Shown piece by piece: positions 17,247-44,358 of a stretch of 64,000 nt of DNA. The position numbers and the translations under genes are program-made. The stretch spans positions 1-64,000 of the forward strand of contig NZ_LXYE02000033.1 of NCBI RefSeq assembly GCF_001659685.2, given 5' to 3'. Below the pieces are notes generated by a model. It did not search any database, was not told the DNA's origin, and saw nothing but the letters and a program-made list of their open reading frames with translations. The DNA is from Labilibacter marinus (GTDB taxonomy: Bacteria > Bacteroidota > Bacteroidia > Bacteroidales > Marinilabiliaceae). How positions within the stretch are numbered: the stretch's first letter is position 1; each line of letters starts with the position of its first letter.

Positions 17247-17265
17247 TTTTAAAAAAAAAAGACAC

Positions 17266-17367
17266 ATGAAACGACCAAACAAATTCAATTAATAGAGTTT
17301 CACAAAGGGCAATGATTGAATTTATTTGGGAGTTCCATCTGACAAATAAAATAAATTTAAACAGATG
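17266..17367 (+). promoter_or_regulatory. Structured leader, copy 1, before GH10 (17365)
   Basis: This leader resembles the one before the GH43 gene (18574-18678). Shared parts, in order, are ATGAAACGACCA, a stem, a 25-nt block (17319-17343, containing TTTGGGAGTTCCATCTGAC) and TTTAAACAGATGAA across the start codon. The stem here is AAATTCAAT (17281-17289) with ATTGAATTT (17315-17323). CATCTG (17336-17341) can pair with CAGATG (17362-17367), which contains the ATG at 17365. The first ATG opens an 8-codon reading frame (MKRPNKFN, 17266-17292). Confidence 0.6.
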
Positions 17368-18507
17368 AATTTAAAGACAACATTATCATATATACTAGTA
17401 GGAATAATAGCATTAGGTTCAATTTCTTGCCAAACTACTGCAAAAAAAACTGAAGTTAAATCGACCTCTCTTGCACAAACATTCGAAGGTAAGTTTTTAA
17501 TAGGAACAGCCTTAAATACAGCTCAAGTTTTAGGTGAAGATACATCATCCTTAAAAGTTGTTGGAACTCATTTTAATTCAATTGTGGCCGAAAACTGCAT
17601 GAAAAGCGAGGTGCTTCAACCACAACAGGGTTTATTTGACTTTAAACAAGCAGATGGTCTTATAAAGCAAGGAGAGCAAACGAACTCTTTTGTTGTGGGA
17701 CATACTTTGGTTTGGCATTCGCAAGCTCCTGCGTGGATTTTTGTGGATAAAGCAGGCAACGAGGTATCTAGAGATACATTAATTGAAAGAATGAGAACCC
17801 ATATCGCAACCGTTGTTGGACGCTACAAAGGTAAAGTTCATGGTTGGGATGTGGTTAATGAAGCTTTAAATGAAGATGGTACTTTACGTGAAAGTAAATG
17901 GTACAACATAATTGGACCTGACTTTATAGAGCTGGCTTTTAAATTTGCCCATGAAGCTGATCCAGAAGCTGAGTTATATTACAATGATTATAACATGTAT
18001 AAACCGGAAAAGCGTGAAGGGGCAATTAAGCTAGTTAAAAGTTTAAAAGAAAAGGGAATTAAAGTAGATGGCATTGGTATGCAAGCTCATTATGGTTTAG
18101 ATATGGAAGTAACTTCCGATATTGAAGCAAGTATTAAAGCTTTTGCTGCTGCAGGTGTGCATGTAATGATTACCGAATTAGATGTATCCGTTTTACCTTT
18201 CCCTGCAGAGGAACTAACTGCAGAGGTGAGTCAGTCTTACGAAAATAAGCCTGAGTTCAACCCATATGTTACTGCAGTACCTGACTCAATTCAACAGGCT
18301 TTAGCTAATCATTATGTAGACTTATTTAAAGTTTACTTGAGGAATCATGATAAAATTAGCAGAATTACTTTTTGGGGAGTTAATGATAGTCAGACTTGGC
18401 GTAATTACTGGCCTATATCTGGACGTACTGATTACCCTTTATTGTTTGATCGTAACAATCAAACCAAACCTGCTTATGATGCCCTTATTGAGTTAAGCAA
18501 AAATTAA
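17365..18507 (+). CDS. GH10 endo-xylanase, lipoprotein, with structured leader
   Basis: Third GH10 of the locus. The lipobox is GSISCQTT (Cys22). GH10 motifs are: FNSIVAENCMKSEVLQPQQGLF, here the classical xylanase form; GHTLVWHSQAPAW; WDVVNEAL with acid/base Glu166; LYYNDYNM; GIGMQAHYGL; ITELDVSVLPFP with nucleophile Glu271; and ITFWGVNDSQTW. It is closer to the standard bacterial xylanase pattern than the other two, which have TATSDMKMH- or TSEYMKMN-type N-termini. The leader can fold CATCTG onto the start codon, so translation may be controlled. It follows the symporter by 118 bp. Confidence 0.94.
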   Translation: MNLKTTLSYILVGIIALGSISCQTTAKKTEVKSTSLAQTFEGKFLIGTALNTAQVLGEDTSSLKVVGTHFNSIVAENCMKSEVLQPQQGLFDFKQADGLIKQGEQTNSFVVGHTLVWHSQAPAWIFVDKAGNEVSRDTLIERMRTHIATVVGRYKGKVHGWDVVNEALNEDGTLRESKWYNIIGPDFIELAFKFAHEADPEAELYYNDYNMYKPEKREGAIKLVKSLKEKGIKVDGIGMQAHYGLDMEVTSDIEASIKAFAAAGVHVMITELDVSVLPFPAEELTAEVSQSYENKPEFNPYVTAVPDSIQQALANHYVDLFKVYLRNHDKISRITFWGVNDSQTWRNYWPISGRTDYPLLFDRNNQTKPAYDALIELSKN

Positions 18508-18573
18508 GATACAACTATATTAAAGTGGTGATTATTGATAAGAAGATAGTCACTATGAGAAAAATATAACAAC

Positions 18574-18678
18574 ATGAAACGACCATGCAAATTTGATTAT
18601 CCAATTTACACACAGGAGGATGATTAAATTTATTTGGGAGTTCCATCTGACCATTGAAAAATAAAATTTAAACAGATG
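18574..18678 (+). promoter_or_regulatory. Structured leader, copy 2, before GH43 (18676)
   Basis: Second copy of the leader described at 17266. The stem is AAATTTGAT (18589-18597) with ATTAAATTT (18623-18631). Compared with copy 1, a C-G pair has become T-A and an A-T pair has become G-T, so pairing is kept while sequence changed. The 25-nt block is at 18627-18651. CATCTG (18644-18649) can pair with CAGATG (18673-18678), covering the ATG at 18676. A short frame starts in the same place (MKRPCKFDYPIYTQEDD, 18574-18627). Confidence 0.6.
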
Positions 18679-19644
18679 AAAAAAGCCAAATATTTAGTTA
18701 AAGATTTATTTACAGCTGATCCTTCAGCTCACGTTTTTAATGATAAATTATTCATCTATCCTTCTCATGATTTTGAGTCGGGAGTTCCTGAAAATGATAA
18801 TGGTGATCATTTTAATATGCGCGATTATCACTCTTATTCTATGGATACTATAGATGGGGAAATTACAGATCATGGAGTGATATTAGATGTGGAGGATGTA
18901 CCATGGGCAAGCCGTCAAATGTGGGATTCTGATGTGGCAGAAAAGAATGGTAAATATTATTTATATTTCTCGGCGAAGGATTATAATGATGTTTTTCATA
19001 TAGGTGTTGCAGAAAGTGATACGCCAGAAGGGCCATTTGTTCCTCTTACTCATCCAATGCGTGGTAGTTATAGCATCGACCCATGTGTTTTTAAGGATGA
19101 TAATGGTGATTACTTGATCTATTTTGGCGGTATTTGGGGAGGACAGTTGCAGCGCTATCGAAATAACAAAGCCATTGAGTGTGGTGCTGAACCAGCAGAT
19201 AGCGAGCCTGCTCTAAACCCTATAGTGGCAAAGTTAAGCGATGATATGTTGGAGTTTGCCGAAGAACCTAAACAGTTGGAAATTATTGATGAGGAAGGCA
19301 AACCTCTTTTAGCAGGAGATCATGATCGAAGATTCTTTGAAGCTTCATGGATGCATAAATACAAGGATAAGTATTACTTTTCTTATTCAACAGGAAACAC
19401 ACATTTGCTGTGTTATGCCACAAGCGATAGTCCTTATGGGCCATTTGTATATCAAGGGGTGATATTAACACCTGTAGTTGGTTGGACGACCCATCATTCC
19501 ATTGCCGAATTTCAAGGAAAGTGGTATTTGTTTCATCACGATTGTGTTCCTTCGGGAGGTAAAACATGGTTACGCAGCATGAAAGTGGTAGAGTTGGAAT
19601 ACAACGAGGATGGAACCATTAAAACGATAGAAGGTGAAGAATAA
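18676..19644 (+). CDS. Cytosolic GH43 beta-xylosidase / alpha-L-arabinofuranosidase
   Basis: Five-bladed propeller hydrolase that would remove xylose or arabinose from imported oligosaccharides. It has no signal peptide, so the cytosol is the likely site, downstream of the symporter. The three GH43 acids are visible: base Asp15 (TADPSAHVF), pKa-tuning Asp135 (SIDPCVF) and acid Glu222 (FFEASWMH). Further blade motifs are WASRQMWDSDV and GKYYLYFSAKD. The length of 322 aa fits a single-domain GH43, of the subfamily-1 type judging from the N-terminal motif. The gene overlaps the next GH43 by 11 nt, suggesting coupled translation, and has the structured leader upstream. Confidence 0.92.
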   Translation: MKKAKYLVKDLFTADPSAHVFNDKLFIYPSHDFESGVPENDNGDHFNMRDYHSYSMDTIDGEITDHGVILDVEDVPWASRQMWDSDVAEKNGKYYLYFSAKDYNDVFHIGVAESDTPEGPFVPLTHPMRGSYSIDPCVFKDDNGDYLIYFGGIWGGQLQRYRNNKAIECGAEPADSEPALNPIVAKLSDDMLEFAEEPKQLEIIDEEGKPLLAGDHDRRFFEASWMHKYKDKYYFSYSTGNTHLLCYATSDSPYGPFVYQGVILTPVVGWTTHHSIAEFQGKWYLFHHDCVPSGGKTWLRSMKVVELEYNEDGTIKTIEGEE

Positions 19645-26732: not shown

Positions 26733-26910
26733 TATAGAATTCAGATGGATATTTACTTTTGGTACAGTAATAAACACATGATGAAAAGGCAATGATAAAA
26801 AAGTTCTCACCTACTTACTGTTAGGTATACCTATTGGTAATCAAGTAGCACATGAGAATAATACTTTTGAGGAGTTGCATTTATGACCATAAAAATTAAA
26901 ATCTAAACAG

Positions 26911-29265
26911 ATGAAAAACGTATTCCTTTTATTATTAATGCTGTTGTCTACCGAAATGTTTGGACAACATCGTGTGAGTGGTAAAATTACTGACAAACAT
27001 GGAGACCCGCTGCCAGGAGCGTCGGTTATCATTAAAGGTACTACAATAGGCGAAATTTCCGATTTTAACGGGAATTATAGTATTACTGTATCGGGTAGCG
27101 AGGTAATGCTGGTGTATTCGTTTATCGGATTTACGGATCAGGAAATAAGTGCATCTGGAAAAACACAAATCAACATTGAATTGGTGGATGCTATGGAATC
27201 ACTCGGAGAAGTGAAAGTAAGAGGGTTTGCTGGTGTTGTAGGTAAAGCGCGTAAAAGAACAGAATCTGTTCAAAAAACTCCGGAATCGGTAACTGCATTA
27301 AATGCTGATGGTATAGAGAATGCTGGTATTACGGATATTAATACATTTTCAAACTTAGTGCCTAACTTAAAGTTTAATACAGCGCAGGCAGTAGGATTTA
27401 ATTTTATTACAGTTCGTGGAATTCCGCAGGTAAGAGGTGGAGATGCCCCTTTGGCTTTTGTGGTTGACGGCGTTACTATTCCAGATCCGAGTTTATTAAG
27501 TCAAGAACTTTACGATTTAGCATTAATTGAAGTGGTGAAAGGACCTCAAGGTGCATTGTACGGAAAGAATGCCATTGGTGGAGCTATTAATGTTTACTCA
27601 AAAGACCCAACCAATACCATGAAAAATAAGGTACAGCTAGGCTATGGAAATGGTAATGCTAAACAGGCTCAGTTTATTTCGTCTGGTGCTATTAAAGAAG
27701 ATAAAGTTTTTTACCGTTTTTCATCCCAATACAAAGAGTCTGACGGTTTATTAACCAATGAGTTTTTAAATAAGAAAGTGGATTTTAACAAGGATATTAA
27801 CCTTAGAGGTCAGATTAAAGCAAATATTACTGATAATTTTACTTTATCTGCTACCTACCAACACTTTAATATTGAGGGTGGGGCTGCTTATTATTCTGTA
27901 AATCCCACGGGGTTCGAAGGTTTTCCAGGTGGCTCGCTCAATCCTAACCCAAAAAAGGGTAACAATGTAATTGTTGCGGATGAGCTAGGTAGATCAGATA
28001 TGATTAATAATTATGGGAACGTGAAGATGGATTATGTTTTTGGTAATGTTAAGCTACAAAGTATTACTTCATATAATAAGGTGGATAAGTCCATGTTTGG
28101 AGACCTGGACTTTTTGGATATACCTTTATTTACTCAGAGTGAAGAAACAAATACTTCCATCTTTAATCAGGAATTCAGATTTAGTAATACAAATAGTGAT
28201 GCCAGACTAGATTGGAGTGCAGGAACTTTTTACCAGATTACCAAAGAAGACTTTTATGCTTGGGGTACAGAATATGATGAAGTGGAGGATGAAGTATACG
28301 AATATATGGTAGCTGATATTACTAACGAAACTAGAACCATGGCCATTTTTGGTTTTGTTGACTACCAGTTGACAGAAAAATTAACGGCCTCTGCTGGATT
28401 TCGTTACGATATGGATAAGTTCAGTCAGGATGATTATTTATTCATGACAGCACCATCCAGAAATAATAACGAGTTTCAACCAAAGGTATCTATTTCATAT
28501 CAAGCAGCACCTAGCGCTTTATTGTATGCTAACTACGGTAGAGGGTACAGAACAGGAGGCTTTAACCCTGAAGCTACCGATTTATTTAACAGAGATTTCG
28601 AAGATGAAATTACCGATAACTATGAATTTGGTTTTAAAACCACTTCATGGGATAATCGTTTTATCTTCAACGGATCTGCCTTTTATACAGATTTCCGTAA
28701 TCAACAACAGTACATCCTTGATTTAAATACATTCTTATCAGGAATTTACAATTACGAAAAAAGTACCATCGTAGGCTTCGAGCTTGAGTCGCGTATTCGT
28801 ATAACTAATTATTTAGATGTATTTGCAAATTATGGACTAACCAATGCCAAAATTGTAGAAGGAGGTAAAGCAGGTGGTGAAAATGGTGACGAGACAGATA
28901 ATACTCAATATAATGGTAATAAAACACCTTTTGTTCCGGTGGATAATTTTACTGTTGGGCTAGAGTCTTCGTTTGATATTACATCTGATATTAAATTCAA
29001 TGGCTTTGTGAATCTGGATAGAACAGGCAAAACCTATTGGCATGAGAGTAATCAAACTAAACACACTTCCGATGCTTACTCTTTGTTATCCGCCAAATTA
29101 GGTTTTGCCTATAAAAACTGGGATTTGAACTTATGGGGTAAAAACTTAACTGATACACAATATTATCAAGAGTTTTCTCCAGGAGAATATGTGGGGAGTC
29201 CTGATGATGTGGCTTGGCGTGGTCAGCCATTATCGTTTGGAACTAGTGTATCTGTAAAATTCTAG
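26911..29265 (+). CDS. TonB-dependent outer membrane receptor (non-SusC type)
   Basis: Active importer in the outer membrane. A signal peptide (to EMFGQ) is followed by a carboxypeptidase-regulatory-like domain (about 20-100; VSGKITDKHGDPLPGASVII), a plug (about 115-230; SVTALNADGIENAG, ITVRGIPQVRGGD, LAFVVDGVTI, EVVKGPQGALYGKNAIGGAINV) and a 22-strand barrel ending in a TonB-receptor signature (GQPLSFGTSVSVKF). At 784 aa it is shorter than SusC and has no SusD beside it, so it belongs to the siderophore/vitamin/small-molecule type. Its stop codon lies 3 bp before the M29/NicX-like gene, and an NCS1 permease follows. The three probably import and process one compound. Confidence 0.93.
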   Translation: MKNVFLLLLMLLSTEMFGQHRVSGKITDKHGDPLPGASVIIKGTTIGEISDFNGNYSITVSGSEVMLVYSFIGFTDQEISASGKTQINIELVDAMESLGEVKVRGFAGVVGKARKRTESVQKTPESVTALNADGIENAGITDINTFSNLVPNLKFNTAQAVGFNFITVRGIPQVRGGDAPLAFVVDGVTIPDPSLLSQELYDLALIEVVKGPQGALYGKNAIGGAINVYSKDPTNTMKNKVQLGYGNGNAKQAQFISSGAIKEDKVFYRFSSQYKESDGLLTNEFLNKKVDFNKDINLRGQIKANITDNFTLSATYQHFNIEGGAAYYSVNPTGFEGFPGGSLNPNPKKGNNVIVADELGRSDMINNYGNVKMDYVFGNVKLQSITSYNKVDKSMFGDLDFLDIPLFTQSEETNTSIFNQEFRFSNTNSDARLDWSAGTFYQITKEDFYAWGTEYDEVEDEVYEYMVADITNETRTMAIFGFVDYQLTEKLTASAGFRYDMDKFSQDDYLFMTAPSRNNNEFQPKVSISYQAAPSALLYANYGRGYRTGGFNPEATDLFNRDFEDEITDNYEFGFKTTSWDNRFIFNGSAFYTDFRNQQQYILDLNTFLSGIYNYEKSTIVGFELESRIRITNYLDVFANYGLTNAKIVEGGKAGGENGDETDNTQYNGNKTPFVPVDNFTVGLESSFDITSDIKFNGFVNLDRTGKTYWHESNQTKHTSDAYSLLSAKLGFAYKNWDLNLWGKNLTDTQYYQEFSPGEYVGSPDDVAWRGQPLSFGTSVSVKF

Positions 29266-44009: not shown

Positions 44010-44358
44010 ATGCTTTATTGCTTTTTAGAAGCTGCAAAGTTAATCTTTTATATGAAACGAGCCATCAGAAATAGTTATCGCATATGAGAACTGTAAAAAT
44101 GGTGAGTTGCATGTAGTAATTGAAATTTATCTAAAAAAAAAAAGTTTTATTTTGGGTGTAAGTGTTCAGTAAATCAGTTATTTATGTTTTCCAATTAAAT
44201 AATGTTTAATAAATATTAAAAAATAATAAACAAAAGCGAATTGATCGTGTTTAACTTTTGAATTTAATAATTAAACAAAAATAAACTGACATGTTTTCAA
44301 TTTTATCGCGCGGTTCTGAAAGCAGTCAAAATTTAAGTCAACACTAAATAATACAATT
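44010..44358. other. AT-rich intergenic region between yicC and the FAS1 gene
   Basis: I see no gene or repeat in these 349 bp apart from the -7-like box next to yicC (44035-44042) and long A and T runs. Confidence 0.6.
44035..44042 (-). promoter_or_regulatory. Candidate -7 element for yicC
   Basis: On the minus strand the sequence reads TAACTTTG, matching TAnnTTTG, and lies 25 bp before the yicC start codon. No clean TTTG is present at the -33 distance. Confidence 0.35.

Follow-up and report, generated by a model that had tools for sequence, protein, structure and literature searches.

The window, a stretch of 64,000 nucleotides from Labilibacter marinus, carries a GH10 gene and a GH43 gene, each preceded by a structured leader (copies 1 and 2 in Table 1). 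The initial annotation reported that these leaders share blocks in the same order, and both the blocks and their coordinates are right, as 17252-17351 and 18560-18659 align without gaps at 77% identity over 100 nt. Its reading of the inner stem is likewise borne out by the sequence, one C-G pair having become T-A and one A-T having become G-T, and at both leaders CATCTG is indeed complementary to the CAGATG that holds the start codon, while the coding genes downstream differ in family (GH10 versus GH43). The folding that it had proposed as a check also supports it, with both leader RNAs folding better than 200 of 200 shuffles (z -3.5 for copy 1 and -4.4 for copy 2). A 201-nt query around copy 1 matched the genome at 16 sites (E < 1e-6), counting copies 1 and 2, so that the resemblance of the leaders goes beyond chance. 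The whole window gave no match at the Rfam gathering threshold, and at E values up to 10 the search of the leader region returned three chance-level matches, all outside the leaders.

Table 1. Mini-element copies in the window, their pairing arms and the genes that begin at them
Feature	Position (strand)	Sequence or extent	Basis or score
Mini-element copy 1, type A	17266..17367 (+)	former start ATG 17266-17268 to new GH10 start ATG 17365-17367	model R1 match 17274-17369, 58.3 bits
Copy 1 inner stem	17281..17323 (+)	AAATTCAAT 17281-17289 / ATTGAATTT 17315-17323	sequence, fold
Copy 1 P2 5' arm	17336..17341 (+)	CATCTG	sequence, fold, covariation
Copy 1 P2 3' arm	17362..17367 (+)	CAGATG, includes GH10 start codon	sequence, fold, covariation
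Copy 1 short frame from old start (putative)	17266..17292 (+)	MKRPNKFN	
GH10 gene	17365..18507 (+)	begins at 3' ATG of copy 1	
Mini-element copy 2, type A	18574..18678 (+)	ATG 18574-18576 to GH43 start ATG 18676-18678	model R1 match 18574-18680, 83.1 bits
Copy 2 inner stem	18589..18631 (+)	AAATTTGAT 18589-18597 / ATTAAATTT 18623-18631	sequence, fold
Copy 2 P2 5' arm	18644..18649 (+)	CATCTG	sequence, fold, covariation
Copy 2 P2 3' arm	18673..18678 (+)	CAGATG, includes GH43 start codon	sequence, fold, covariation
Copy 2 short frame from old start (putative)	18574..18627 (+)	MKRPCKFDYPIYTQEDD	
GH43 gene	18676..19644 (+)	begins at 3' ATG of copy 2	
Mini-element copy 3, diverged	26797..26915 (+)	5' of TonB-dependent receptor gene (Pfam), start 26911	model R1, 33.9 bits
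Mini-element copy 4, damaged	44052..44139 (+)	3' end without ATG and without long frame	model R1, 35.5 bits

Both leaders belong to a family of mini-elements with the layout ATG/AAACGA(C or GC)C ... GAGTTCCATNTG ... TTTAAACAN/ATG (slashes mark junctions), which occurs in two main forms, type A (~100 nt), to which both window copies belong, and type B (~90 nt). The types are often stacked, with a single ATG serving as the 3' ATG of one copy and the 5' ATG of the following one. The 21 places read out in this genome lie nearly all directly 5' of genes of unrelated kinds, and in the weaker copies among them the 3' part alone is left. A covariance model built from 45 copies, the search suggested by the annotation, yielded 30 matches within this genome and is matched in 25 of 41 related genomes, with at least 100-103 matches each in G004, G007, G008 and G020, where the largest counts are lower bounds as at most 103 candidates per genome were scored. 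Many further copies with more compensatory changes, which the annotation had named as support for its claim, were recovered, but the genes downstream are unrelated. A pattern scan of species genomes gave at least 118 stretches, with 117 from Bacteroidota and one from a cyanobacterium among the matches listed; the last looks like a chance match. Three viral contigs also matched the pattern, one probably by chance, and phage and plasmid collections gave no mini-element match at E 0.01. On two IMG/VR contigs (L209 and L211) mini-elements sit 5' of open frames, and viral contigs carrying them are a possible route between hosts.

The mini-elements encode no transposase and, at 90-105 nt, hold no long frame. 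A search of G004 and G005 for a long element bounded by mini-element ends, made through unmatched 5' and 3' halves, returned short or damaged copies alone. One locus (L107, 1-345) carries a longer variant of ~200 nt, in which the 5' ATG begins a frame of 51 aa (MKRPRIKTKPALV...); the usual 3' end comes next and then the start of a further gene. A third kind of short leader, AAACTGGCAT ... TTAGAGTAT/ATG, occurs in G005 (L276 and L279), and its 3' end resembles that of the 337-aa IS110 described below. GC-rich, REP-like palindromic repeats lie inside some mini-elements (L274, L275, L280 and L288 in G005; L059 in G001).

The pairings are maintained across the family. The variable base of CATNTG forms a Watson-Crick pair with the base 5' of the 3' ATG in 178 of 191 distinct copies, against 64 expected from base frequencies, and the pairs are spread over three kinds (A-T 66, C-G 62 and G-C 50); three of the 13 mispaired cases are G-U. 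In the 45-copy alignment the same pair has 27 double changes and two failures, P1 is paired in 92.6% of alignment cells and the hairpin inside P1 in 75.8%, and for the structure as a whole the covariation score lies above all 500 shuffles. Homologous leaders thus do not break the pairings freely; free breaking is what the annotation had named as refuting a functional RNA. Beside L376, a diverged copy truncated by the edge of the locus has ATGAAATACCCAT ... ATGGGTATTCCAT, so that P1 is maintained there with other letters. The constant A-C mismatch in P1 stems partly from selection, since the A3 rows were found with patterns containing GAGTTCC, and a P2 figure of 95/120 from the 118-stretch set was put aside because the pairing ATG had been preferred in that count. 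A tally of right ends was put aside as well, since its search pattern misreads CATATG ends.

Stable folds, a start codon inside P2, strong covariation and a position at gene starts would all suit a cis-regulatory RNA, in which the hairpin would hide the start codon until a signal arrives and copies would have been recruited to genes needing control. The comparison of related genomes speaks for another origin. In G004 one identical 90-nt body is present at eight loci with unrelated flanks; all eight continue with ATGAAA and every left flank ends in AT. When the top 20 model matches of that genome were fetched, ATGAAA continued in 20/20 and a frame no shorter than 90 aa followed in 18/20, several running past the locus edge. 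Among 12 fetched copies of one G004 repeat, an extra type B lies exactly at the ATG of the frame in two and is absent in ten, of which L045 resembles a collapsed pair of A and B; the repeat with these filled and empty sites itself looks like an insertion sequence. This multi-copy repeat (L041-L052) has a type A mini-element 5' of its frame (ATGAAAGCTTCAAAG...), a mini-element thus being carried inside another repeat.

Orthologous positions vary in the same manner. Upstream of coaD there are one whole and one interrupted copy in G005, no copy directly before the start in eight other genomes of the same genus, an IS110 end at the upstream side in G002, and a weak match (E 0.05) ~110 nt upstream in G004. 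GH43 homologues at 13 loci in 12 genomes, a count that leaves out three partial matches, have no copy directly 5' of the start, and in a syntenic relative (G001) the transporter-GH10-GH43 order is kept with short plain spacers and no copy at both window sites. Of nine GH10 homologues located, six are without a copy and one is cut at the locus edge; L403 in G004 has a copy of its own, and L398 gives a weak model match (E 0.48). Unrelated downstream genes, absence at orthologues, stacks sharing an ATG and identical bodies together identify the leaders, as judged from genome comparison, as a dispersed mobile element whose copies appear and vanish between relatives.

The same observations weigh against regulation as the primary role, as the downstream genes form no single functional class, copies are absent at orthologues and stand in tandem stacks, and identical bodies have different flanks. 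Older copies in this genome have shrunk to the 3' part, Rfam holds no match, and G-U at three of 13 mispaired P2 bases is weak support for pairing between RNA strands. We consider a cis-regulatory RNA quite improbable. Of the initial claim of a functional RNA leader, the pairings and their covariation are real, but a regulatory leader conserved at carbohydrate genes is not supported by the genomes. It is more likely that the pairings serve mobility than a translation switch, and the start-codon hairpin may affect translation as a side effect.

The target of this mobility can be read from the flanks. At least three A residues at -13 to -10 of the 5' ATG were found in 74 of 141 copies whose left neighbour is not another copy, compared with 196 among 486 ordinary starts and with 80 among 606 ATGAA sites in intergenic DNA that are not starts (copies versus the latter, Fisher 1e-21). 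The right flank is ATGAA in 116 of 120 copies from the listed stretches (at least 118), four of 124 copies without a right ATG having been set aside beforehand; the 191-copy scan was not used for this count, as its pattern itself requires ATGAA. Among the non-tandem copies of the same stretches, 97 of 113 lead into a frame that is 60 aa or longer or runs past the locus edge, and about half of the remaining 16, by reading, run into a damaged second copy. Intergenic ATGAAA in the window starts such a frame in 9 of 20 cases (45%), and 97/113 at that rate has a probability of 2e-19; this null comes from one 64-kb window, and the wider count (36 starts, 141 others) from loci fetched for their elements. 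Part of the excess of gene-start positions may be due to selection against other insertions. The A-rich context marks the 5' ATG of the copies as the former start codon of the gene, and the right end of the mini-element supplies a start region and ATG of its own, by which the gene remains in frame.

Elements of the IS110 family use the same junction. The proteins at L344, L329 and L374 are DEDD transposases by Pfam, with PF01548 and PF02371 (DEDD_Tnp_IS110 and Transposase_20), and NF033542 (NCBIfam) scores 267 and 169 bits at a cut-off of 140. The IS end 5' of coaD in G002 reads ...TTATTAGAGTAT/ATGAAA, and the protein of the complete copies of that IS in G004 is an IS110 transposase of 337 aa. 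In G004 this 337-aa kind has six copies, all of which stand at gene starts as CAN-AT/CGTTAG ... GAGTAT-AT/GAAA, with the core AT within the start codon, the same dinucleotide at both junctions and no longer target duplication. In the upstream non-coding end a match to the left flank comes first, followed by GTTTCAT, the complement of ATGAAAC; this is the segment order given for the IS110 type in the available part of PMC11187229. The left-flank match is 10-11 nt long and best with the own element at L332 (G004), L335 (G006), L336 (G005) and L340 (G031), but the five other G004 copies match over 6-7 nt and three of them fit the G005 element better, which counts against the reading favoured below.

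A second kind encodes 419 aa. Among the 41 relatives it was found in one, G002 (L344), and a search of 295 genomes of the order found it in seven at 54-81% identity (L374-L378, L382 and L386). It is also positioned at ATGAAA; by reading, four of seven right ends meet a frame start and two meet a mini-element, and the right end of L374 is GTGAAA with an ATG 4 nt further on. The downstream non-coding region contains (A/G)TGAAA segments, where the base before the first is the left-flank base in 6/6 elements and the base before the second is the right-end base in 7/7, L374 with its GTGAAA among them. In L376 a third segment of this sort is present. The G002 copy begins at the contig start, leaving a left flank of 4 nt. 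Because these non-coding segments track the junctions, we infer that the 419-aa protein is a recombinase aimed at start codons.

The ends of the 419-aa elements partly resemble the mini-elements. Similarity of the left end to the 5' half of a mini-element is clear in three of seven, marginal in two and absent in two; the left ends of L344, L375 and L386 align over ~50 nt, well past the shared ATGAAA. Right ends score above shuffles in two of six, the terminal letters of L377 are identical to the end of type B mini-elements, and model R1 matches the IS ends weakly (E 0.13-0.97). Against a link to IS110, PF02371 is absent in 16 of the 25 mini-bearing genomes, including this genome and G020 with its ~100 copies, four of the 13 genomes that do have PF02371 gave no mini-element match, and the mini-elements lack the long non-coding region of the IS110 partners.

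The mini-elements might instead be landing sites moved by something else, with IS110 targeting the same junction and the likeness of the ends arising from that shared junction. The 337-aa IS110 does lie at the 3' junction of a recognizable type B copy in G005, in G006 and at one G004 locus, most mini-bearing genomes are without IS110, and IS1111 relatives inserting in REP or attC repeats are known from PMC11187229, as far as its available text describes them. This explanation leaves the ~50 nt of likeness at L344, L375 and L386 and the type B letters at the end of L377 unaccounted for, and no fitting alternative mobilizer was found among the candidates examined (Y1 and reverse transcriptase). 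We regard it as unlikely.

Of those candidates, a Y1 (HUH) transposase reading hairpins and a short target, which would make the mini-elements REP- or IS200-like repeats, is suggested by hairpins beside a short fixed target and by Y1 matches in 34 of 41 genomes. Four genomes (G014, G018, G022 and G023) have mini-elements and no Y1 match, mini-element matches occur at 2 of 30 Y1-gene loci (L072 and L075), and it is other palindromic repeats that sit inside some mini-elements; we rejected a Y1/REP partner (IS200/IS605 or REP-RAYT) on the first two counts and hold this explanation to be highly improbable. Repeated divergent Y1 genes, RAYT-like, were seen between small variable genes at L071 (G000 C26), L075 and L076 (G009). 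A reverse transcriptase (PF00078) is not needed, since mini-bearing genomes, among them G000, G009, G013 and G022, have no match to it. The whole G004 genome has 29 reverse transcriptase matches, several equal in score, suggesting repeated group II introns or similar elements.

The reading that we consider probable is that the leaders are non-autonomous elements of ~90-105 nt that insert at ATGAAA, as miniature relatives of IS110 moved in trans. Kinship with IS110 and movement in trans are suggested by the shared junctions, the partial similarity of the ends and precedent. Mini-elements would be IS ends brought together and recognized at AN-ATG-AAA by an IS110-type recombinase, which would use the core AT of the ATG to join the element to its target. 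After insertion, the old ATG on the left would open a short frame, and the A-rich right part of the element with its ATG would then start the gene. With less certainty, mobility would depend on a match between the TTCCATNTG strand and both ends of its own element (ATGAAA at the left, CANATG at the right), and P1 and P2 would be kept for that reason. The window copies are probably relics that no longer move, since the PF02371 search found no IS110 transposase in this genome.

Except for one constant mismatch, the TTCCATNTG strand is the complement of the joined element ends and of the ATGAAA target. As it matches both of the element's own ends, it would most simply guide the recombinase or shape the ends. 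IS110 recombinases are RNA-guided, with RNA segments that match the target and the element ends (PMC11208160, PMC11187229, in the parts available); for ISEc11, the accessible text reports that an 82-nt RNA suffices, and a mini-IS with the ends alone was moved in trans (PMC11187229). It is conceivable, and we put it forward tentatively, that an RNA-guided recombinase has self-guided satellites in the mini-elements. Each ~90-nt element would then be its own minimal guide RNA and would program a borrowed IS110 transposase to insert it at start codons throughout the genome, with a start codon restored at every insertion. In the 191-copy set the left-flank bases of old copies do not in general match the guide base. 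At the eight G004 loci with the identical body the left base is always T, as the guide would want, but their flanks mostly resemble the ends of older copies.

With IS110 elements that use a bridge RNA or seekRNA (PMC11208160, PMC11187229, as far as the available text describes them), the partner elements share both transposase domains, a dinucleotide core at both ends and a long non-coding end with junction-matching segments. They differ from those described there in being probably aimed at the start codon ATGAAA, which they rebuild, and in the far more numerous transposase-less family of ~90-105 nt around them. The mini-elements resemble MITEs in being short, transposase-less and multi-copy, with ends partly resembling a full-length element, but have none of the usual terminal inverted repeats that we noticed, use a fixed target and have an internal pairing that tracks their own end; no IS110-derived MITEs were found in the literature searched. 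ISPa11 at REP and ISKpn4 at attC (PMC11187229, available part) are likewise cases of RNA-guided insertion at a repeated site, but here many different genes provide the site with their start codons. The TAACTGA repeats of Beggiatoaceae (PMC4679880) are also intergenic and multi-copy, and a regulatory role has been proposed for them; they are heptamer direct repeats in another phylum, and the accessible part of that paper mentions no structured element. The literature searched, which included few subscription papers, held no earlier description of start-codon-targeted IS110 or of such mini-elements.

If true, this would be a natural example in which RNA-guided transposition is directed to start codons, a target found at many genes, and in which insertion preserves the frame and provides its own translation start. 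It makes testable the minimal size of a bridge-RNA element and a low-cost parasite life in gene starts. It also carries a caution, in that 5' leaders of Bacteroidota that are repeated, structured and covarying can prove to be copies of a transposon instead of riboswitches.
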